From positions 124,001-188,000 of the forward strand of contig CANJCB010000003.1 in the NCBI GenBank assembly GCA_947473305.1: a stretch of 64,000 bases of DNA. Reading direction: 5' to 3'. The notes under the pieces were generated by a model. It ran no database searches. It saw only the letters and a list, made by a program, of their open reading frames with translations, and was not told the DNA's origin. Shown piece after piece: positions 5,835-15,998 of this stretch. A program made the translations under genes and the position numbers. The stretch comes from Rhodospirillales bacterium (GTDB taxonomy: Bacteria > Pseudomonadota > Alphaproteobacteria > ATCC43930 > CGMCC-115725). Position 1 is the stretch's first letter. Every line of letters starts with the position of its first letter.

Positions 5835-6401
5835 ATGAAGATCAATGCCATCGATATCAAGCCGGGCAACGTGCTCGAACACCAGGGGAAGCTCTGGGTC
5901 GTCTTGAAGCGCGATTTCGTGCAGCCCGGCAAGGGTGGCATGTTCGCCCAGGTCGAAATGCGCGACCTGCGCAGCGGCACCAAGCTCAACGATCGCTTCC
6001 GCACCCAAGAGGCGGTAGAGCGGGTGAGCCTCGATGAAAAGGAAATGCAGTTCCTCTACTTCGAGGGCGAGCTGGCGACCTTCATGGACAACGAGACCTA
6101 TGAGCAGACCCAGGTGCCGCGAGAGCTGATCGGCGACCCGGCCGATTTCCTGATGGAAGGCATGATCTGCCAGGTGAAGCTTCATGAAGGCGTGGCGCTC
6201 TCGGTCGACCTGCCGCAGACCGTGACCATGCTGCTCGTGGAAGCCGACCCGGTGGTGAAGGGCCAGACGGCCTCCTCCTCCTACAAGCCCGGCAAGCTCG
6301 AAAACGGCCGGCGCGTGATGATCCCGCCCCATATCGACTCGAATATCCGGATCGTCGTGAATACCGCCGACGGCACCTACCTCGAACGCGCCAAGGACTG
6401 A
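5835..6401 (+). CDS. efp: Elongation factor P
   Basis: A 188-residue, three-barrel translation factor that relieves ribosome stalling at polyproline. The ATG at 5835 gives MKINAIDIKPGNVLEHQGK, the standard N-terminus. The modification loop is QPGKGG, with Lys33 in the position that EpmA modifies. The C-terminal barrel ends with RIVVNTADGTYLERAK, as usual. Regions upstream of 5835 in the same frame are not family-like. A TATATT box at 5796-5801 is a possible -10. The stop overlaps the next gene's ATG by one base. A proline-rich secreted protein encoded nearby (7938-9665) is the kind of substrate that needs EF-P. Confidence 0.97.
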   Translation: MKINAIDIKPGNVLEHQGKLWVVLKRDFVQPGKGGMFAQVEMRDLRSGTKLNDRFRTQEAVERVSLDEKEMQFLYFEGELATFMDNETYEQTQVPRELIGDPADFLMEGMICQVKLHEGVALSVDLPQTVTMLLVEADPVVKGQTASSSYKPGKLENGRRVMIPPHIDSNIRIVVNTADGTYLERAKD

Positions 6402-7201
6402 TGGCGGTTTTCTCCCCGACCATCAATGTGATGACGGCGGCCGCCCGCAAGGCGGCGCGCGGACTGCTCCGCGACTTCGGCGAGGTGGAGCAGCTCCAGG
6501 TTTCGGTCAAGGGTCCGGGGGACTTTGTCTCCCAGGCCGACCACAAGGCCGAGAAGATGCTGCGCGTGGAGCTTGGCAAGGCGCGGCCCGGTTTCGGCTT
6601 CCTCATGGAGGAAAGCGGCGAGACGACGGGCGACGGCAGGCACCGCTGGATCGTCGATCCCCTGGATGGAACCACGAACTTCCTGCACGGCTTCCCGCAT
6701 TTCGCGATCTCCATCGCCTTGGAGCGCGAGGGCGAATTGGTCGCCGCAGTGATCTACGAGCCCGTGCACGACGAGATGTTCTGGGCGGAAAAGGGCTCGG
6801 GCGCCTATGTCAACGACCGGCGGATGCGGGTCTCCGCGCGCAAGACCCTGCCCGACACGCTGATCGGCACCGGCATTCCCTTCCGGGAGCGCGGCGATCA
6901 TCCGGCCTATCTGAAGGGCCTGGCGGCCGTCATGGCCGCGACCTCCGGCGTGCGGCGCGCGGGCGCGGCTTCGCTGGATCTCGCCTATGTGGCGGCGGGG
7001 CGGCTCGACGGGTTCTGGGAATTCGGGCTGCAGCCCTGGGATATCGCGGCCGGGATCCTCCTGGTGCGGGAAGCCGGCGGGCGGGTCACCGACATCGCCG
7101 GCGGCCACGACATGCTGGCGACCGGCAATGTGCTGGCCGCCAACCCCCATCTTCACCTCCCGCTCGGCTCCCTGCTCAAGGAAGCCGGCCGGAAGGAGTA
7201 A
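6401..7201 (+). CDS. suhB: Inositol monophosphatase family protein (SuhB-like)
   Basis: A 266-residue enzyme of the Mg2+-dependent, Li+-sensitive phosphatase superfamily. The metal ligands are visible: MEESGE with Glu70-Glu71, DPLDGTTN at 86-93, and WDIAAG at 213-218. The length is normal. It hydrolyses myo-inositol phosphates in vitro; in enterobacteria SuhB also acts in rRNA transcription complexes, a role not assessable here. Its ATG shares one base with the efp stop (6401), so it is translationally coupled to efp. The gene symbol is by family; CysQ-type specificity is less likely from the motifs but not excluded. Confidence 0.88.
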   Translation: MAVFSPTINVMTAAARKAARGLLRDFGEVEQLQVSVKGPGDFVSQADHKAEKMLRVELGKARPGFGFLMEESGETTGDGRHRWIVDPLDGTTNFLHGFPHFAISIALEREGELVAAVIYEPVHDEMFWAEKGSGAYVNDRRMRVSARKTLPDTLIGTGIPFRERGDHPAYLKGLAAVMAATSGVRRAGAASLDLAYVAAGRLDGFWEFGLQPWDIAAGILLVREAGGRVTDIAGGHDMLATGNVLAANPHLHLPLGSLLKEAGRKE

Positions 7202-7204
7202 GCG

Positions 7205-7573
7205 TCAGGCGCCGCAGACCCGGTGGCGTTCGCCCGACAGGCGCCGCACGGTAGAGGTGCCGAGTTCCTTCACATCGGGATCGACGGCGTTGCTGCCCCG
7301 CTGGGCGATCAGCTCGAGCGCCACCTTTTCCTCGTCGGAGGAATTGAGCGCCCAGACATCGACCTCGCAGAGGCATTGCTTCAGGGCCTGATGACCGTCG
7401 AGGCCCTTGGCCCTGATCTTCTGCATCGAGCAATTGTCGATATGGCCCGCGAGCTTGGTCTTGAACTGCTGGGCGCGCGGCGTCAGCGGCTGTCCGTATT
7501 CCGCGCGCGGCGTCGTGGAACAGGCAGACAGCAGAATGGCCGCGACGGCCACCACACCCAACCGCTTGTTCAT
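7205..7573 (-). CDS. Small lipoprotein, unknown function
   Basis: 122 residues from the ATG at 7573, which has GGAGG spaced five bases upstream; in-frame codons further upstream lie in AT-rich leader DNA. The N-terminus MNKRLGVVAVAAILLSAC is a lipoprotein signal with cleavage before Cys18. The mature chain has further cysteines (NCSM, QCLCEVD, RVCGA), which could form disulfides in the periplasm. I do not recognise a family. It is convergent with the phosphatase gene; the two stop codons are about three bases apart. Confidence 0.8.
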   Translation of the reverse strand: MNKRLGVVAVAAILLSACSTTPRAEYGQPLTPRAQQFKTKLAGHIDNCSMQKIRAKGLDGHQALKQCLCEVDVWALNSSDEEKVALELIAQRGSNAVDPDVKELGTSTVRRLSGERHRVCGA

Positions 7574-7937
7574 CCATCCCTCCATCGCTAAAAATCCTCC
7601 AAAATTCTTCCTGCATTTCTCTATCGATCCAGAGTTACGCAGGTAACTGTCAAACTTACTGACAGTATGTAGGATCTTTTTTGAAGATCCCCTGTGATAC
7701 ATATCACTAGGCACAGTTAAATTATATATGAGTCGTTACTGAATATTAAACGTGCTCAAGAGTATTAAGCGGAGTGTAAGAAATCAGATAAAAATAAGCC
7801 AAATTACCTATCGATGATTTAGACGAATTAATGTTATGTCATTCTTGTGAGCAAGAGCTTGGCGGGCCAACCGACCAGCCCTCCGATTTGTTCCCGAGCC
7901 CCCCGCAAAAAACTCGCTGTGGCGGCGGAGAGGCCGG
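7574..7937. other. AT-rich divergent intergenic region with dyad symmetries
   Basis: This gap of about 360 bases is far richer in A+T than its surroundings and separates the lipoprotein (minus) from the repeat/OmpA cluster (plus). It contains a perfect inverted repeat ACTGTCA (7646-7652) / TGACAGT (7660-7666) and a hairpin GGATCTT (7672-7678) / AAGATCC (7684-7690). The position suggests operators or promoter elements for one or both genes. No credible gene was found in it. Confidence 0.55.
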
Positions 7938-9665
7938 TTGAGCTATTTTCACTGCGTGGCGTCTAAAAGAACGGACATCGACCAACAGGGAAAAGGCATC
8001 TCCGGCAAAAGCGGCCGGCGGCGGCGCATGGCCATGGCCTGCGCCTCGGCGGCCTTCGTCCTGGGCGGTCTTCTGCTCGCCCCCCAGATCCCCCGGGCGC
8101 AGACCGCGGTCACCGTCGACCCCGACGCCCTGGAAGGATTGGGAACGCCCACTGCGGCGTCCCGGGGCTCCGCGATCACCCTGCGCCCGCCCGGCAGTCC
8201 CCCGGCAAGCCCCGCTAACCAGGCAAGCCCTCCTGCCAGCCCCCCGGCCAATCCTTCCCCCACGCAACCCCGGGTCGTCGAGGCGCCTGCCAAGGAGCCG
8301 GCGCGGCCGGAGCCACCCCCGGTTCCCGCCACGGTCGCCATTCCATCGCCCACACCCGTTCCATCGCCCGCGCCCACACCCTCTTCCGTGATCGTCGATA
8401 ACGACGCGCTGAAGCAATTGCCCCAGAGCCCCCCGGCGCCGGCGCCCTCACCGGCCGTGACCCTGCGCCGCCCCGGCGAGGTCCGCCCGGACCCCGAACC
8501 CGCGCCAACGCCGCCCCCAGCCTTGGCCCTGCCCCCTCAACCGGCCACCGCCGTGACCGTCGATACGGATGCGCTGGGCGGGATCGGGGCTGATCGGTCC
8601 TCGACATCTGGGGCCACGGTCACGCTGCGGCGGCCGGGCGACCCGCGCCCCGAACCGGCGGCCCCGGTTCCCGCCGCTCCCCGGAACCGGGGGGAGAGCG
8701 TCGCGGTCGATGCCGCCGCGCTCGACGCCCTGGGGCCGGCCCCCCGAAGCGGCGGCATCGCCCTCCGCGCGCCGCGCGCCGCGCCGGTGGCCGACAGTTC
8801 CACGGTCGCGATCGATGCGGGCGCACTGGATTCCCTCGGCGGGCCGCCGCCTGTCGCTGCGGTCAGCCTGCGCCCGCCCCGGGCCGACAGCCTCTTCGAG
8901 ACACCGAAATCCTCGGGCGGCGCACGGGTCCCCGCGCCGAACCGGCAATCCACCGCGGCCCTGCGCCTCGCCTCGGTCAATTCCGCCGCCCGGACCGGCG
9001 TGACGGTCGATGCCAGCGCGCTCGAAAGACTGGACTCGGCCGACGGCGGCGGTGCGGCCCCGGTGACGCTCCGCCCACCGCCGGGGGCTGCCGCGCCGCA
9101 ACGGGCTCCCGCGGCCCAGGTCGCGGCCATCGTGCCGCCCCGACCCTCGCTGACGCCGATCCCGACGCCCGCTCCGCCGAGGCCCGCGCCGGAAGCCGCG
9201 CCGGTCCCGGCCCCCATCGCCGCGCCGGTCCTGCCGCCGCGCCCGACCATCACCCCGCCGCCCACGCCGCAGGCAGCCCCCGCCTCGCTCCCCCCGCAGC
9301 AGCCGGCGACCCGCCCGGCGATCACCTCACCCGAGCCGCCCGTTCCTCACGTGCCGGGCGCCAGCACCGTTCTCTTCGACAAGGGATCGAGCGAATTGCC
9401 TGGAGCCGCCCCGGCCGAACTCGACGTCCTCGTCGGCCGTGTCCGCTCCGGCAATGGTCGGCTGGAGATCCGGGGCTTCGCCAATGCCACCGACAACCAG
9501 GCGAGCGAGGCGCGGCGGTTGTCGCTCGCCCGCGCCGTGACGGTGAGGACCTATCTCGCGGCCCATGGCCTCGACCTCGGGCGGATGGATGTCCGCGCGC
9601 TGGGCGTTCAGGCCAATGATCCCTCCCCCGCCGACCGGGTGGAGATCGTGCTGCGCGACCGATGA
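7938..9665 (+). CDS. Proline-rich exported protein with six VD-AL-LG repeats and C-terminal OmpA domain
   Basis: 575 residues from a TTG start with GGAGAGG just upstream; an alternative ATG at 8028 would start directly at the signal peptide. RRRR precedes a hydrophobic segment ending APQIPRAQ, a likely signal peptide. Six copies of a unit follow, each a VxVDxxALxxLG block, a variable linker and a (V/I)xLRxP block, at about 57-86, 150-180, 205-234, 254-281, 288-315 and 354-382. Long Pro/Ala spacers separate them. Residues 475-575 are an OmpA-like peptidoglycan-binding domain (TVLFDKGSSELP, LEIRGFANATDN, RRLSLARAVTVRTYL). It lies 39 bases before a MotA/TolQ-like gene and probably forms an envelope complex with its products. 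I do not recognise the repeat. Confidence 0.82.
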   Translation: MSYFHCVASKRTDIDQQGKGISGKSGRRRRMAMACASAAFVLGGLLLAPQIPRAQTAVTVDPDALEGLGTPTAASRGSAITLRPPGSPPASPANQASPPASPPANPSPTQPRVVEAPAKEPARPEPPPVPATVAIPSPTPVPSPAPTPSSVIVDNDALKQLPQSPPAPAPSPAVTLRRPGEVRPDPEPAPTPPPALALPPQPATAVTVDTDALGGIGADRSSTSGATVTLRRPGDPRPEPAAPVPAAPRNRGESVAVDAAALDALGPAPRSGGIALRAPRAAPVADSSTVAIDAGALDSLGGPPPVAAVSLRPPRADSLFETPKSSGGARVPAPNRQSTAALRLASVNSAARTGVTVDASALERLDSADGGGAAPVTLRPPPGAAAPQRAPAAQVAAIVPPRPSLTPIPTPAPPRPAPEAAPVPAPIAAPVLPPRPTITPPPTPQAAPASLPPQQPATRPAITSPEPPVPHVPGASTVLFDKGSSELPGAAPAELDVLVGRVRSGNGRLEIRGFANATDNQASEARRLSLARAVTVRTYLAAHGLDLGRMDVRALGVQANDPSPADRVEIVLRDR

Positions 9666-9704
9666 CGCCTTCCCTTCCAGCTTTATAAAGAAAGCGGAGA
9701 TCCT

Positions 9705-10850
9705 GTGACCCGACCCCAAAAATTCCTCGTCCGGATGGTCGTGTTCCTCCTGGTGGTGGCCGTGGTGGCGGTGCTCCTGGGACGTTCGCTGGCCGGCTTC
9801 TTCATGGGCAATCCCGGCGTCAACGGCATGATCCTCGGCATCCTGGTCGCGGGCATCGTCTATATCTTCCGCCAGGTGATGCTCTTGAACCCGGAGGTTG
9901 CCTGGATCGAGGCCTTCCGGAAGAACCCGGCCAATATCACCACGCTGCCGCAGCCCCGGCTCGTCGGTCCCATGGCCACCATGCTGGTCGAACGCAGCGG
10001 GCGGAAGGTGAGCCTCTCGGCCGTCTCGCTCCGCACGCTGCTGGACGGGATCGGGACAAGGCTCGACGAGACGCGGGAGACCTCGCGCTACCTGATCGGG
10101 CTCCTCGTCTTCCTGGGCCTGCTGGGGACCTTCTATGGGCTTCTGGAAACCGTCCAATCGGTCGGCGGCGTCATCGGCGGCATGAGCGTCGTGGGCGGCG
10201 ACCTGACGCAGACCTTCAACAACCTGAAATCCGGGCTGGCGGCCCCCTTGGGCGGCATGAGCACGGCCTTCAGCGCCTCGCTCTTCGGGCTGGCGGGATC
10301 CCTGGTGTTGGGCTTCCTCGACCTCCAGGCGGGGCAGGCGCAGAACCGCTTCTACAACGACCTGGAAGAATGGCTTTCGGGATATACCCGGCTCTCAGGC
10401 GGCGGGCCGGCGGGCGACGGCGGCGACGGTTCCGTGCCGGCCTTTATCCAGGCCCTGCTGGAACAGACCGCCGACAGCCTCGAGAACCTCCAGCGCACCA
10501 TGGGCCGCGGCGAGGAAAGCCGCATCCAGGCGAATACCAACCTCCTCAACCTGACGGAACGCCTCGCCACCCTCGGCGACCAGATGAAGACCGAGCAGAA
10601 CCTGCTGCTGCGGCTGGCCGAAAACCAGATGGAGCTGAAGCCGGTGCTTCAGAAGCTGGTGGACGCGGCCACGGGCGGCGGGCAGGACGAGAGCCGGGGC
10701 CATCTCCGGAACATCGAGATCTATATGGCGCGCCTCACCGAGGACGTCTCCCAAGGCCGCACCCAGGCGATCCAGGAAATCCGCAACGAGATCCGGCTCC
10801 TGGCGCGCACCATCGCAGCGCTCGCCGAGGGCGGCGGCGAGCAGCGGTAG
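9705..10850 (+). CDS. MotA/TolQ/ExbB-like proton channel protein
   Basis: 381 residues from a GTG start with AAGCGGAGA upstream. Four membrane segments are visible at about 10-30, 40-60, 128-150 and 183-207. The last two carry the MotA/TolQ/ExbB pattern, GLLGTFYGLLETV and GLAAPLGGMSTAFSASLFGL. The C-terminal 170 residues are helical and probably coiled coil in the cytoplasm, longer than in ExbB. Such proteins form pentameric ion channels that drive a MotB/TolR-type partner, here the next gene (nine bases apart). It is not a flagellar MotA: no flagellar genes are near and the tail differs. The coupled process is unknown. Confidence 0.87.
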   Translation: MTRPQKFLVRMVVFLLVVAVVAVLLGRSLAGFFMGNPGVNGMILGILVAGIVYIFRQVMLLNPEVAWIEAFRKNPANITTLPQPRLVGPMATMLVERSGRKVSLSAVSLRTLLDGIGTRLDETRETSRYLIGLLVFLGLLGTFYGLLETVQSVGGVIGGMSVVGGDLTQTFNNLKSGLAAPLGGMSTAFSASLFGLAGSLVLGFLDLQAGQAQNRFYNDLEEWLSGYTRLSGGGPAGDGGDGSVPAFIQALLEQTADSLENLQRTMGRGEESRIQANTNLLNLTERLATLGDQMKTEQNLLLRLAENQMELKPVLQKLVDAATGGGQDESRGHLRNIEIYMARLTEDVSQGRTQAIQEIRNEIRLLARTIAALAEGGGEQR

Positions 10851-10859
10851 GAGGCGAGC

Positions 10860-12131
10860 ATGGCCCGCCGCACCCGCCGCCCCGGCATCGACGTCTGGCC
10901 GGGCTTTATCGATGCCCTGGCGCAGCTCGTCATGGTCATCGTGGTCCTGCTGCTGATCTTCACGGCGGGGCAGTTCTATCTGAACCAGGCGCTCTCCGGA
11001 CGCGACGAGGCCCTGCAGCGCCTGACCCAGCAATTGAACGAACTGACCGATCTGCTCTCGCTGGAAAAGCGGTCGAACCAGGACCTGCGGCTCAACCTCT
11101 CGCAGCTGTCGAGCCAATTGCAGCAGGCCAATGCCGAGCGCGACAGCCTGACGACCCGCGTGGCCGAACTCGCCGCCCGGGCCGACGAGGCGACGGCGCG
11201 GGCCAACCGCCTCGGCGGCGATCTTTCCGACGCGCAAAAGCTCGTGAGCGTGGACAAGGACAAGGTCGAGTTGCAACTGAAGCAGATCGCGAGCCTGCAG
11301 CAGGATATCGACGCCCTGACCAAGGTCCGGGCCGAGCTTGAGGCCAAGGTCACGAGTCTGGCGGGCCAGCTGCAAATCAACGAGAGGGACCTGACCGCCG
11401 CCCGCGACCGGTCGAAGGAGCTGGAAGCCCGGCTTTCGACCTCCGAGGAACGCACGGCGCTGGCGCAGAAGGAGATCAACCAACGCGACATTCGCCTCAA
11501 GGAAAGCACGGATCGGGTCGATATGCTGAACCAGCAGATCGCAGCCCTCCGCGAACAGCTCCAGAAGATCGCCGCCGCCCTCGACATCTCGGAGAAGGCG
11601 ACCAAGGACCAGCAGGTCCAGATCGCCGACCTCGGACGCCGGCTGAACTTGGCGCTCGCCGGGAAGGTGGAGGAGCTGGCGCGCTTCCGCTCGGAGTTTT
11701 TCGGGAGATTGCGGGAGGTTCTGGGAGACCGGCCGGATATCCGGATGGTGGGCGACCGCTTCGTCTTCCAGTCGGAAGTGCTTTTCACGCCGGGCAACGC
11801 CGACCTGGGCGACAACGCCAAGAAGCAGCTCGTGCCGCTGGCAAGCGCCTTGAAGGAGATCATGCCCAAGATCCCACAGGACCTGAACTGGGTGCTGCGC
11901 GTCGACGGCCATACCGACAGGCGGCCGATCAGCAATCCGCAGTTTCCCTCGAACTGGGAGCTTTCGGCCGCCCGCGCGATCTCGGTCGTGAAATTCCTGA
12001 TGGAGCAGGGCATCCCCGCCGCGAGACTCGCCGCCGCGGGCTTCGGCGAATACCAGCCCCTGGACAACCGCGACGACGAAATCGGCTACCGCCGCAACCG
12101 CCGGATCGAGTTGAAGGTGACGGATCGGTAG
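10860..12131 (+). CDS. MotB-like protein: TM segment, long coiled coil, OmpA domain
   Basis: 423 residues. The N-terminus is PGFIDALAQLVMVIVVLLLI: a single membrane span with Asp18 at its cytoplasmic edge, in the place of the proton-binding Asp of MotB. Residues about 46-265 are heptad-like Leu/Ala/Glu/Gln sequence, a very long periplasmic coiled coil. Residues about 290-420 are an OmpA peptidoglycan-binding domain (VLRVDGHTDRRPI, NWELSAARAISVVKFL, AAGFGEYQPL, RRNRRIEL). It pairs with the preceding channel gene. The organisation resembles MotAB and Zorya ZorAB, but no zorC/D/E neighbours exist. The role is inferred as force transmission to the cell wall. Confidence 0.87.
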   Translation: MARRTRRPGIDVWPGFIDALAQLVMVIVVLLLIFTAGQFYLNQALSGRDEALQRLTQQLNELTDLLSLEKRSNQDLRLNLSQLSSQLQQANAERDSLTTRVAELAARADEATARANRLGGDLSDAQKLVSVDKDKVELQLKQIASLQQDIDALTKVRAELEAKVTSLAGQLQINERDLTAARDRSKELEARLSTSEERTALAQKEINQRDIRLKESTDRVDMLNQQIAALREQLQKIAAALDISEKATKDQQVQIADLGRRLNLALAGKVEELARFRSEFFGRLREVLGDRPDIRMVGDRFVFQSEVLFTPGNADLGDNAKKQLVPLASALKEIMPKIPQDLNWVLRVDGHTDRRPISNPQFPSNWELSAARAISVVKFLMEQGIPAARLAAAGFGEYQPLDNRDDEIGYRRNRRIELKVTDR

Positions 12132-12203: not shown

Positions 12204-12428
12204 ATGAAGGACGGGATTCACCCCGACTACCACGAGATCACGATCGTCATGACGGACGGGACCTCCTACAAGACACGCTCGACCTACGGGAAGGAGGGCG
12301 ACACGCTTCGCCTGGACATCGACCCGAAGTCCCATCCGGCCTGGACCGGCGGACAGGCCAAGCTGCTCGACCGCGGCGGCCAGCTCGCCCGCTTCAGCAA
12401 GCGCTTCGGGAATATCGGCAAGGTCTGA
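12204..12428 (+). CDS. rpmE: 50S ribosomal protein L31, zinc-independent (C-minus) type
   Basis: 74 residues from the ATG at 12204; the upstream in-frame ATG lacks a ribosome site and adds non-family residues. The sequence [25 protein letters not shown] and FSKRFG is characteristic of L31 of alphaproteobacteria. No CxxC zinc ribbon is present, so it is the cysteine-free form. It has its own promoter and a strong terminator, so it is a single-gene unit. Confidence 0.95.
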
Positions 12429-12450: not shown

Positions 12451-12484
12451 AACTGCCCGGGCAAGTCCCGGGCAGTTTCGTTTT
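12451..12484 (+). terminator. Rho-independent terminator of rpmE
   Basis: A perfect 11-base stem, AACTGCCCGGG (12451-12461) with CCCGGGCAGTT (12467-12477), and a five-base loop is followed by TCGTTTT. It lies 22 bases after the rpmE stop. Confidence 0.9.
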
Positions 12485-13272: not shown

Positions 13273-14013
13273 TCAGACTTTGGAAAGGGCGGCTTCGGCC
13301 GCCCTTTTTGTTTCGAGATTTTCGAGCGCGGCAGCGAAAGTCACCAGCGCCTCCGCCCCGAGCGGCGTCAGCACGTAGGCCCCCCGCGCCACCCGCTCGA
13401 ACCAGCCATAGGCGTCGCGCTGCAGGATAGCGCTGGCATTGGGCGCATAGCCGGTCGCGCGAAGCTCGGCGATTTTCGCCATTCCCCCGTTCAAGAGCTG
13501 GGCGCAGCGCAGCGCCTCCTGACGATAGGCGGTCATGATCGGCCCGCGATGGGCGCTGCCGCCACGATTGGGATCGCCCTTTCGCCGCAGATGCTCGCCC
13601 ATCAGGAGCTTCGCCTTCCGCGCGTTCTTGCGCGGCTGGTAGGGGGCGGGATCGAGCAGCAGTTCGACCCTCGGCAGCCGGCCCGGATGGACGATCATCA
13701 GGCCGAGCCCCAGCCGCCGGCAAAGCTGCCGCAGAGGCCGCGCATAGGGCGAGGCGCGGGGATCGCTGCGGGGCTTGGGTTTCGGCACCGCCAGATAGAC
13801 CCTATCCGTCAGATTGAGCCGGTCCACGCCCTGGAGGATCAGCGGCAACCCCAGCCTGAGCTTCAGTTCCACGATCAGCGGCGGCTCATCGCCGCGGGTC
13901 GCGACCACGTCGCAGCCCCGGACCTCGCCCTTGACGTCATAGCCCCGCGCTTCGAGGAAGGCCTTTATCGGCTCGTAGAGATCGGCCTCCGCGAGCGGCT
14001 TTTCCGAGGTCAC
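13273..14013 (-). CDS. DUF2161 family protein (PD-(D/E)XK nuclease-like)
   Basis: About 246 residues from a GTG start at 14013 that overlaps the upstream stop as GTGA. The N-terminal half reads GYDVKGEVRGCDVVATRG followed by PLIVELKLRLGLPLILQGVDR. A GCDVV aspartate and the E-x-K of VELK match the core of the PD-(D/E)XK nuclease fold. The C-terminal half (TAYRQEALRCAQLLNGG, KIAELR, ILQRDAYGWFERV) looks like a winged-helix domain. DUF2161 proteins are common in alphaproteobacteria and uncharacterised to my knowledge. Third gene of a coupled operon with the coiled-coil and hotdog genes. DNA cleavage is only a fold-based inference. Confidence 0.85.
   Translation of the reverse strand: MTSEKPLAEADLYEPIKAFLEARGYDVKGEVRGCDVVATRGDEPPLIVELKLRLGLPLILQGVDRLNLTDRVYLAVPKPKPRSDPRASPYARPLRQLCRRLGLGLMIVHPGRLPRVELLLDPAPYQPRKNARKAKLLMGEHLRRKGDPNRGGSAHRGPIMTAYRQEALRCAQLLNGGMAKIAELRATGYAPNASAILQRDAYGWFERVARGAYVLTPLGAEALVTFAAALENLETKRAAEAALSKV
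13284..13309 (+). terminator. Rho-independent terminator of hsp20, inside the convergent gene
   Basis: AAAGGGCGGC (13284-13293), a TTCG tetraloop and GCCGCCCTTT (13298-13307) lead into a T-run ending at 13309. The bases also encode the last residues (KRAAEAAL) of the DUF2161 protein on the other strand. Confidence 0.88.
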
Positions 14014-15998
14014 GGCTTCAGCCGTCCCACCGCATTCGCCAGGATCAGGTAAAGCTTGCCCACATCCGCCGTGACGAAGGCGGCGCTCAGCACGTCCTGG
14101 TGGTCGCATTGCTTGGCTTGCGCCAGCAGTCCCTCGAACTCCCTGAGATAGCGCTGCACATAGTCGCGGAAGATGCCGTCCTCGTCGAACTTGCGGCGGA
14201 TCTGCGCCTCGGAGCCCTTGGGCTGGAGTTGCAGCAGATGCCGCGTGAAGACCGAGCGGTCGCCGCCGTGGAACTTCTTCCAGACCGCATCCGGGACCTG
14301 GGCATCCAGGATGCGCGCCAGATCCACCGCGATCGAATGCATGGTCTCGATGATGAAGGTCGCGGATTTGAGGAACCGCTCCTGCTGCACTTCCGTGGCG
14401 CTTTCGCGGGTCTTGGCGACGGTCTCGGAAAGCTCCGCCACCGCCCGGCGGAGCGCTGCCGCCCGCTCCCCGAAAAGCGCGCCGGCCTCGGCGGCGCTTG
14501 CCTCGGTCTCGCCGATGGAGGCGACGATCTCCGCCGCCCGGTCGCCGAGGTTGCGGATCTCGCCAAGCGCCCGGTCCGCCGCCTCGTTCAACCCTTCGAG
14601 ACCGAGACGCAGGGCGCGGCCCGCCTCCCGGCCGTCTTCCGTGGTGGCGGCCAGGGCGGCGATCTGCCCGGCCAGCGCTTCGGCCCCGTCCACGGTGGCA
14701 GCAAGCTGCCCCTCGATCTCGGCGAGCGTCTCCTGCGTGCGGCGCAGCGCGGGTTCGGCCGAGCGGGAAAACTCCCCGGCCTGGCGACCCAGGGTCTCGC
14801 CCAGCTGGCGCATCTCCGCGTCGAGGTCGCCGAAGGACGCTCCCGCCGCCTTCGCCGTTTCCAGGGCGGCGGCGCTCGCCCGGGTGCTGGCCTCGGCGGC
14901 ATCCGTCAGCGCGGCATGGCCGGCGGTCGCGGCGGCGATCCCCTCGGCAAGGGTCTCCCCGACCTGTCCCACCCGCCTCTCGATCTCCGAGGCCTGCTGG
15001 CGCATCTGCTCGCCCAGCTCCTCGATGCGAATTTCGGATTGCCGCACCGTGGTCCTGACGTGCTCCGCCTCGCGGTCGAGCCCCTCGCGCACCGTGGTCA
15101 GGGAAGCCACCGCCTCCTGGGTCACGTCCCGCGCGGCGGCGGCGCCCTCCCCCAGGGTCTCGCCGATGCCCTTGAGATCGGCGGCCAGTCCCCGCAGCCC
15201 CTCGACCGAGGGAGCGAGCAGCGAGCCCACGGTCTCGATCTTCTCCCGCGCCAGATCGGCGGTGGAGGTCAGGGCCTTGACCTCCCGGCCGAGAATGGCG
15301 GCGGCCTCCACCGAAGCCTCTTTCAGATGGATCGCCGCAATTTCTATCGGGGCCGTGAGAGTCTCCGCCTGCTTGCCCAGGGTTTCCCCGGCCGCTACCG
15401 CCGCTTCGGCGATCCGGGCGGAGGTCGCCTCCAGATCGGCGATCTTGTCCGTGAGGCTGATGCCATCGGCGGTGAGTTGCTCCGCCAGGGTGTCGAGACC
15501 GTCACGCGCCTCGCCCGCCCGCTTGGTCGCGGTCTCGGCGGCAAGCGCGCTGGCCTCCAAGGCGCGGGTCAGCCGTTCGGCCGCCTCGTCGATCCGCCTG
15601 GCCCCCGCCGTCGAGGCCTCGGTCAGCGCCTCCGCCTGTCGGCGCAACCCATGGCCCGCCGCCTGGGCGCGGGTCTCCGCCGCCTGAGAAGGATAGATGA
15701 AGGCGTCGAGCTGAAGGGAAAGCGCCCGCGCGGACTGGGCGAGCGCTCCCATCTCCCCGCGCAATTCCGCCATCAGCAGCAGCAAGGCGGGCGGCACCAG
15801 GGCCGCCGCCGCCAGCACGACCAGTTCGTCGGGCGACAACGCCAGGATATCGGGCCAGCCGAAACGGACCCAGATCCAGCCTCCCGCGAGGATCAGCCAA
15901 CTGACGCCCAGCACCGCTTCCGGCGAGACGCGCCAGCGCCGCCTCGGCGGAGGGACGACCTCTTCTTCCAGCAGTAGGGGAACGGGAAGCTGGCTCAT
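14010..15998 (-). CDS. Large coiled-coil membrane protein, unknown function
   Basis: 662 residues. Two membrane segments near 29-47 and 58-77 are followed by about 480 residues of Ala/Glu/Leu-rich helix with regular heptads, reminiscent of methyl-accepting or apolipoprotein-like coiled coils, but with no HAMP or signalling tip. The last 110 residues form a more complex conserved-looking domain, with TFIIETMHSIAVDLARILDA, WKKFHGGDRSVFTRHLL and RKFDEDGIFRDYVQRYL. It is coupled by four-base overlaps to both neighbours. I do not recognise a named family. A structural or polar scaffold role is possible. The strong codon bias for Ala/Glu leaves large false frames on the opposite strand. Confidence 0.85.
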   Translation of the reverse strand: MSQLPVPLLLEEEVVPPPRRRWRVSPEAVLGVSWLILAGGWIWVRFGWPDILALSPDELVVLAAAALVPPALLLLMAELRGEMGALAQSARALSLQLDAFIYPSQAAETRAQAAGHGLRRQAEALTEASTAGARRIDEAAERLTRALEASALAAETATKRAGEARDGLDTLAEQLTADGISLTDKIADLEATSARIAEAAVAAGETLGKQAETLTAPIEIAAIHLKEASVEAAAILGREVKALTSTADLAREKIETVGSLLAPSVEGLRGLAADLKGIGETLGEGAAAARDVTQEAVASLTTVREGLDREAEHVRTTVRQSEIRIEELGEQMRQQASEIERRVGQVGETLAEGIAAATAGHAALTDAAEASTRASAAALETAKAAGASFGDLDAEMRQLGETLGRQAGEFSRSAEPALRRTQETLAEIEGQLAATVDGAEALAGQIAALAATTEDGREAGRALRLGLEGLNEAADRALGEIRNLGDRAAEIVASIGETEASAAEAGALFGERAAALRRAVAELSETVAKTRESATEVQQERFLKSATFIIETMHSIAVDLARILDAQVPDAVWKKFHGGDRSVFTRHLLQLQPKGSEAQIRRKFDEDGIFRDYVQRYLREFEGLLAQAKQCDHQDVLSAAFVTADVGKLYLILANAVGRLKP

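Follow-up and report, generated by a model that had tools for sequence, protein, structure and literature searches.

The window analyzed here, a stretch of 64,000 nucleotides from a Rhodospirillales bacterium (assembly GCA_947473305.1, contig CANJCB010000003.1, positions 124,001 to 188,000), carries three adjacent genes on its forward strand, called here A, B, and C, which constitute a conserved and uncharacterized envelope operon, where a motor of a known kind is accompanied by a consistent third gene. In the reading that we prefer, to which we give a probability of about 0.5, B and C would form a proton-driven motor anchored to the cell wall, with A being its periplasmic or outer-membrane-side partner. 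An earlier note on this DNA, made from the letters alone, had described A as an exported six-repeat protein, B as a four-span protein, and C as a protein with a membrane residue Asp18, a coiled coil, and an OmpA domain; the frames, motifs, spans, and Pfam matches agree with this description.

The fold and the residues of the two proteins strongly suggest that B and C would be a proton-driven motor. B (381 residues) has hydrophobic segments at residues 7–25, 34–62, 129–147, and 187–205, plausibly four membrane spans, and the third one contains the motif GLLGTF, including Thr142, which is invariant in 35 of 35 sequences; the pattern G[LM][LFM]GTF.GL is found in all of the 190 B loci. C (423 residues) has a single hydrophobic segment (residues 16–34) containing Asp18, a coiled coil with a best hydrophobic period of 3.51 over residues 45–275, and an OmpA domain (PF00691, E 8e-17). 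In the 26 C sequences compared, Asp18, Gly350, Thr352, Asp353, Asn365, and Arg372 are invariant and His351 nearly so, and the pattern W.[GAS][FYLMW].D occurs in 183 of 185 loci. A channel Thr and an axle membrane Asp, as expected for the 5:2 ion-driven motor superfamily, are present as Thr142 of B and Asp18 of C. Moreover, the canonical OmpA domain supports that C would be anchored to peptidoglycan. By score, C is a member of NCBIfam PRK09039 (NF006543; 455 versus a cut-off of 305 bits), a model that covers C only and assigns no function. Among relatives, B proteins range from 295 to 690 residues (median 384), with 237–249 residues after GLLGT in the middle 80% of 131 loci, and C proteins from about 300 to 995 (for example, in loci L253 and L089), with a median of about 434.

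With general family models, B is hardly recognized. It matches Pfam MotA_ExbB (PF01618) with an E value of 0.22 and 11.7 bits, below the cut-off of 22.9, which some relatives exceed; in 41 genomes searched, this family is over its cut-off at the B gene in at most 7 of the 26 B-bearing genomes, according to a comparison by eye where five were checked by place. Its only NCBIfam match is ZorA_4 (E 0.75), with no TolQ or MotA equivalog match in that collection, and a sequence search of the PDB gave two chance matches only. The structural model of B (pLDDT 78, pTM 0.56) has a long helical tail, and the best 50 Foldseek rows obtained with it are all TolQ, ExbB, or ZorA chains (probability 0.75–1.00, E values of 0.0013–0.09, none of them under E 0.001). 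In VIA-align, the best Z score among TolQ/ExbB/ZorA is 12.0 (3.6 Å over 189 residues), and those of MotA/PomA are 7.5–9.8. The predicted fold of B is therefore that of the TolQ/ExbB/ZorA channels.

A comparison of profiles places B nearest to ZorA (97.6%, E 3e-12, over 73 columns), followed by TolQ (55%, 1e-4), ExbB (34%, 4e-4), and MotA (15%, 0.002). These profiles were made with 35 of 45 B, 26 of 42 C, 23 of 25 A domain, 15 of 31 TolQ, and 11 of 12 MotA sequences, that of ExbB having four rows only, two of which (L330 and L331) gave a better, though weak, match to TolQ. The core tree (58 rows, 131 columns) likewise groups B with ZorA and separates it from TolQ/ExbB and from MotA. The support is moderate (93/82), the bootstrap was still unsettled, and the MotA rows are visibly misaligned; a further MotA sequence (MotA_L328) was dropped since it had no core match. 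In this tree, the diverged B rows L093 and L182 fall next to ZorA, and B is not one clade there. A clustering of the channel genes with flagellar MotAB or Tol-Pal, which would have refuted the hypothesis of the earlier note, is seen in neither comparison.

The source genome encodes other motors of this fold. TolQ, TolR, TolB, Pal, a flagellar MotA, and ExbB all score above the NCBIfam thresholds of their families, and the MotB-like neighbor of the flagellar motA falls just short of its own (269.9 versus 277 bits). The tolQ-tolR-tolB-pal genes are located about 19 kb upstream of A, with a frame at the place of tolA, between tolR and tolB, that has no NCBIfam match. Hence, the expectation that flagellar and Tol-Pal partners are lacking stands for the genes adjoining the trio, where none of them occurs, and fails for the genome as a whole. 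As separate Tol, Ton, and flagellar motors are present, B-C brings the motors with this fold to four. B-C resembles Tol (TolQR-TolA-TolB-Pal) in the proton-driven motor fold and in having an OmpA-fold partner; however, it is apart in the core tree, the tol-pal locus is a separate one, and the sequence of A is that of neither TolA nor Pal. Likewise, four spans and a wall-anchored axle with an OmpA domain are shared with flagellar MotAB, although MotA is the weakest profile match to B, the genome has its own MotA and MotB-like gene elsewhere, and B-C would also be present in a non-flagellated host, as discussed below. Where TolQ and the A-B-C (or A) locus could be read on a single contig, they are 14–30 kb apart in 8 of 10 genomes; these distances were taken by eye (G000, G044, G047, G049, G067, G069, G075, and G079 at 14–30 kb, G054 at 93 kb, and G062 at 563 kb, with G066 unplaced), and it is possible that they reflect a conserved envelope neighborhood. 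Also, the NCBIfam model NF007722 (PRK10414), which matches ExbB/TolQ below its cut-off, is described as a "tol-pal system-associated acyl-CoA thioesterase", a name that seems to be mistaken.

Given the proximity of B to ZorA by profile and tree, B-C could be related to the anti-phage motor of Zorya, encoded on the chromosome, and act in defense. The general plan of ZorAB (PADLOC ZorA3 and ZorB3; 8qyd, 8vvn) is the same, a channel with a GLLGT-type span and a helical cytoplasmic tail combined with an axle that ends in an OmpA domain, and C matches PADLOC ZorB3 with 81 bits (E 1.5e-23). B reaches 39.6 bits against ZorA3, with 73 columns aligned in the profile comparison; the best matches of five clear ZorA proteins are of 468–912 bits. 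However, with 381 residues B is far shorter than ZorA (675–801), and it has a shorter tail. A PADLOC scan of 10 neighbors in the window detects no effector gene (ZorC, ZorD, ZorE, ZorF, or ZorG) and no other defense family, with one coiled-coil match to a ZorA tail as the only related finding, so that by its neighborhood B-C is not Zorya. Together with the housekeeping neighbors, the mostly single copy of B-C per genome, and A, for which Zorya has no known counterpart, this makes a role in defense very improbable. The nearness to ZorA would provide a housekeeping relative for Zorya.

From its TTG start, A encodes 575 residues; the ATG at codon 31, which also precedes the signal peptide, is just as plausible a start. 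Its layout comprises a signal-peptide-like hydrophobic stretch, a proline-rich body with six repeat units, and a C-terminal OmpA-like domain. The units, V.[VI]D..AL..[LI] followed by L[RK].P, begin at residues 58, 151, 206, 255, 290, and 355, and these six strict matches are far beyond chance (mean 0.0003, maximum 1, in 20,000 shuffles). However, the idea in the earlier note that repetition is a feature of the system was not sustained. Among 153 full A proteins (those whose start is inside the locus), the window protein alone carries six strict copies, a single protein contains two, 71 have just one, and the pattern is absent from 80; for the 149 distinct proteins, the numbers with zero, one, two, and six copies are 80, 67, 1, and 1. 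A looser pattern gives zero copies in 59, one in 84, two in 8, three in 1, and six in 1, with several of the extra matches plainly due to chance. The repeat was accordingly rejected as a hallmark.

What is shared by relatives is usually a single unit near the mature N-terminus, at a median of 17 residues past the end of the hydrophobic stretch, whose second half is found within 90 residues in 32 of 73 motif-bearing A proteins versus 7% in shuffles. The pattern A.A[QAEDSGT], considered without a shuffle control, is present between the hydrophobic stretch and the motif in 53 of 69 distinct motif-bearing proteins, which suggests that A is exported and that its signal peptide is cleaved; a looser signal peptidase pattern is uninformative, as it occurs in 65 of the 69 and yet in 87% of shuffles. 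In many of the relatives, according to an inspection of 25 rows by eye, the conserved peptide is also preceded by a short V-V-I-G-G-like stretch at the mature N-terminus, after the signal peptide.

The C-terminal domain of A matches PF00691 (E 9e-9), and its model (pLDDT 86) superposes on 3td5 with a Z score of 16.1 and 1.8 Å over 102 residues, the predicted fold being OmpA-like. In the Acinetobacter baumannii OmpA, the accessible text of the corresponding report describes Asp271 (D271) and Arg286 (R286) as the residues that bind diaminopimelate (PMC6572160). A comparison of 175 A domains aligned with 181 C domains reveals that the binding Asp is present in 8 of the former and in 178 of the latter, and that the Asn position is Ala in 143 A domains (Asn in at most 5) and Asn in 178 C domains, whereas the binding Arg is kept in both (172 and 178, respectively). 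Also, an Arg occupies the position after the Asn in 167 A domains, where C has Trp. Because the loss of binding residues is family-wide, the domain of A has most likely changed its ligand, and binding of a protein instead of peptidoglycan would be more likely. Two peptidoglycan-binding proteins beside one channel, as had been described, are consequently not what the alignment supports: only C is canonical, and A was discarded as a second canonical binder.

Regarding its distribution, B is found in 189 of 289 alphaproteobacterial genomes and the A domain in 164 of them (E 1e-12); in a phylum sample of 299 genomes, B is detected at E 1e-15 in 64, 59 inside the class and 5 outside. The B-like channels outside the class belong to G384, G446, and G480 (family f184), G461 (f196), and G584 (f213), and in two of the three f184 genomes the frame is short (252 and 268 residues). 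Among the matches listed (150 rows each for A and B), A and B are both present in 113 genomes, and in 111 of these A is directly upstream on the same strand, with 7 to 352 bases between matches, once 1475; of the other two genomes, G151 has A at a contig end. Similarly, the best 80 of 583 confirmed loci, those that were named, contain A, B, and C in 67 cases, B and C in 12, and A and B in one. The adjacency claimed for the trio in the window therefore extends to its relatives, and A-B-C is a conserved unit; the absence of linkage in all relatives, by which the earlier note would have been refuted, is clearly not the case. The genes upstream are conserved as well, being efp-imp-A-B-C, where imp is the inositol monophosphatase family gene, the commonest order in 128 fetched loci (66, with several others cut by contig ends). 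The remaining ones are A-B-C (16), imp-A-B-C (5), overlapping frames (1), a locus cut before C (1), loci without A (21), and loci with A and without B (18). These loci were chosen and are no census, with L108–L166 selected among the top matches to B and each of the 18 A-without-B loci fetched for lack of a listed B, one of them (L184) from a genome that does have a B match; nor are they independent, since some contigs were fetched twice (for example, L052/L187, L073/L199, and L153/L181) and L210 and L211 are on one contig. In a few loci without A, the gap between the phosphatase gene and B holds short proline-rich frames (L059, L061, L062, and L065), where the motif was not seen. In one small genome (G048, locus L092), the place of A upstream of B is taken by a charged protein rich in Lys, which matches the A domain only weakly (E 1e-9).

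A function for the pair may be indicated by work on the non-flagellated Komagataeibacter hansenii, the source of the single phenotype found in the literature searched. According to the accessible text of two papers, overexpression of its "motA/motB" leads to elongated or chained cells, faster colony spreading, and looser cellulose, and in the later of the two the GFP fusions are polar (PMC6570709, PMC6315621). The proteins are described there as MotA/MotB homologs, and no third gene is mentioned in that text. As published, they have four spans and one span plus an OmpA domain, respectively, and lengths of 348 and 321 residues, within the ranges of B and C given here; moreover, the K. hansenii MotB is 46% identical over 99% to a Magnetospirillum protein, and the Asaia and Magnetospirillum C proteins are 45% identical over 99%. 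This topology, length, and identity pattern suggests that the K. hansenii genes are probably B-C orthologs. What was already known would thus be the annotation of C by NCBIfam and, probably, the K. hansenii pair, as neither A nor the trio was found described in the literature searched, which covered few subscription papers and is weak evidence of absence.

These phenotypes lead to a more specific form of the preferred reading, compatible with it, in which B-C would serve a Tol-Pal-like task, such as outer-membrane constriction or lipid homeostasis, and A would be similar to TolA, TonB, or Pal. The elongated and chained cells, the polar location, and the nearness of TolQ on the chromosome are all consistent with such a task. 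TonB has a hydrophobic N-terminus, a proline-rich strand, and a C-terminal domain, a layout that A recalls. However, A would lack the inner-membrane anchor of TolA and TonB, since its hydrophobic stretch resembles a signal peptide that is cleaved off; only 4 of 73 A proteins are lipoprotein-like, unlike Pal, and the genome already has a Tol-Pal system. We consider this form somewhat unlikely.

From the sequences, predicted folds, conserved residues, gene order, and distribution, we infer the stoichiometry, the use of protons, the rotation, the contact of A with B-C, and the place of action in the following manner. In a 5:2 rotary motor of the inner membrane, B would form a ring that encloses the membrane helices of two C subunits, and protons would pass by Asp18 of C and Thr142 of B. 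C would be held to peptidoglycan by the OmpA domain at the end of its long coiled-coil stalk and, being so anchored, would let the B ring rotate together with its helical tail at the cytoplasmic face, as in the rotation model of MotAB and in ZorAB. A would be a flexible proline-rich strand in the periplasm, where the conserved peptide is near the mature N-terminus and the OmpA-like domain more likely binds a protein, and it would pass the action of the motor to the envelope, probably at the poles or division sites.

Several observations weigh against this proposal. For the fold of B, an unrelated helical protein reaches a Z score of 10.1 against the model, among the motor rows, and hence the conserved motifs of B weigh more than the fold score. 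For the phenotypes, the K. hansenii pair is equated with B-C from published topology, lengths, and identities, the effects of overexpression may be artifacts, and Escherichia coli overexpressing the pair looked normal, according to the accessible text (PMC6570709). For the partnership, the lengths of A and C are uncorrelated (rho −0.15, n = 131), and no length correlation among A, B, and C is informative. Besides, A is without a B match in 28 of 149 listed A genomes (36 among the listed rows, minus eight that have a B match in the genome table, as compared by eye), and C is over its family cut-off in none of 11 such genomes searched (best 70 versus 305 bits); this implies that A also has a role independent of the motor. 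Conversely, B is without an A match at E 1e-12 in 31 of 149 listed B genomes, also by eye (36, minus G092, G119, G233, G271, and G325, which have a weaker A match). The N-terminal peptide is kept in 6 of 18 fetched A proteins that lack a neighboring B, and it would then not serve for docking on B-C only; as a docking site for C alone, it was rejected on the same basis. Consequently, of the proton-driven machine with a wall-bound partner that had been hypothesized, the machine is retained, and A as its wall-bound partner is weakened.

These data give some weight to another explanation, possible although tentative, where B-C is a motor on its own and A an independent envelope protein that shares an old efp-imp operon, their adjacency being an inherited gene order. 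The efp and phosphatase genes, which can hardly be motor parts, are kept beside A too, A stays with efp-imp in lineages without B-C, and the absent length correlation between A and C would also be expected. Opposed to this are the adjacency of A and B in nearly all listed genomes with both, a count made for this pair without a baseline of equally old neighbor pairs, and the fact that the three products are all envelope proteins by sequence, with A and C sharing the OmpA fold. The role of A as the partner of the motor is thus supported by adjacency alone and weakened by the lineages that have either A or B-C, and a reading that fits all the observations is that A has its own envelope partner everywhere and is employed by the motor in those lineages that have one. 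A broader extension of the preferred reading, which at present appears unlikely, would be an envelope machine of a kind still undescribed, a fourth housekeeping proton-driven motor across the Alphaproteobacteria, beside Mot, Tol, and Ton, that hands its power to a soluble periplasmic adaptor (A, with an OmpA fold turned protein-binding) and represents the cellular stock of the Zorya motor.

Flagella, gliding, nutrient import, the constriction of the outer membrane, and phage defense are all driven by motors with this fold, and B-C is easily missed among them because B is under the PF01618 cut-off. This may explain that the word alphaproteobacteria appears nowhere in the accessible main text of two surveys of such motors (PMC12505986, PMC12204202). 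In addition, the K. hansenii authors state, in the text available, that the partner receiving the energy of the motor is still to be elucidated (PMC6570709), and gene A is a concrete candidate for it.

Table 1. Coordinates of the A-B-C locus and its surroundings in the window.
Feature	Position	Strand	Remark
efp, elongation factor P	5835..6401	+	Pfam EFP domains (scanned from 5838); conserved upstream neighbor
Inositol monophosphatase family gene (imp)	6401..7201	+	PF00459, E 1.5e-66; conserved upstream neighbor
169-residue frame	7205..7714	-	
Gene A, putative exported proline-rich protein with OmpA-like C-terminal domain	7938..9665	+	Alternative start ATG 8028
A unit 1	8109..8192	+	Just after signal peptide, the place of the single copy in relatives
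A unit 2	8388..8474	+	
A unit 3	8553..8636	+	
A unit 4	8700..8774	+	
A unit 5	8805..8879	+	
A unit 6	9000..9080	+	
A OmpA-like domain	9363..9662	+	Peptidoglycan-binding site degenerate: Arg retained, Asp and Asn lost
Gene B, predicted four-span MotA/TolQ/ZorA-type channel subunit	9705..10850	+	Helical cytoplasmic tail
B GLLGTF motif	10116..10133	+	Third span, invariant Thr142
Gene C, MotB-like	10860..12131	+	NCBIfam PRK09039, "peptidoglycan -binding protein"
C Asp18	10911..10913	+	Expected proton-binding residue of the single membrane span
C periplasmic coiled coil	10992..11684	+	Period 3.51; coiled-coil Pfam matches
C OmpA peptidoglycan-binding domain	11766..12119	+	GHTD, N365, R372
rpmE, presumed ribosomal protein bL31	12204..12428	+	Downstream neighbor, named from its sequence
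Terminator-like hairpin 3' of rpmE	12451..12477	+	11-pair stem; weak
662-residue protein	14010..15998	-	
Locus given for the TolQ distances, with seven other genomes	G000:C3:109121-113273		L317; contig coordinates

The neighbors of the trio are efp, the phosphatase gene, bL31, and Hsp20. The frame downstream of C, which we take to be rpmE, has a bL31-like counterpart at this place in 61 of 163 loci, on the same strand in 60. The hairpin that follows it has weak support, as 2 such sites were found versus a mean of 3.6 in shuffles. In the window genome, the 169-residue frame between the phosphatase gene and A has a lipobox-like sequence and no Pfam or PADLOC match at E 0.001. Finally, the 662-residue protein encoded beyond the locus is hydrophobic in stretches near its N-terminus and contains a very long coiled coil, its family matches being the ZorA1 tail (E 3.6e-7) and, weakly, DUF16.

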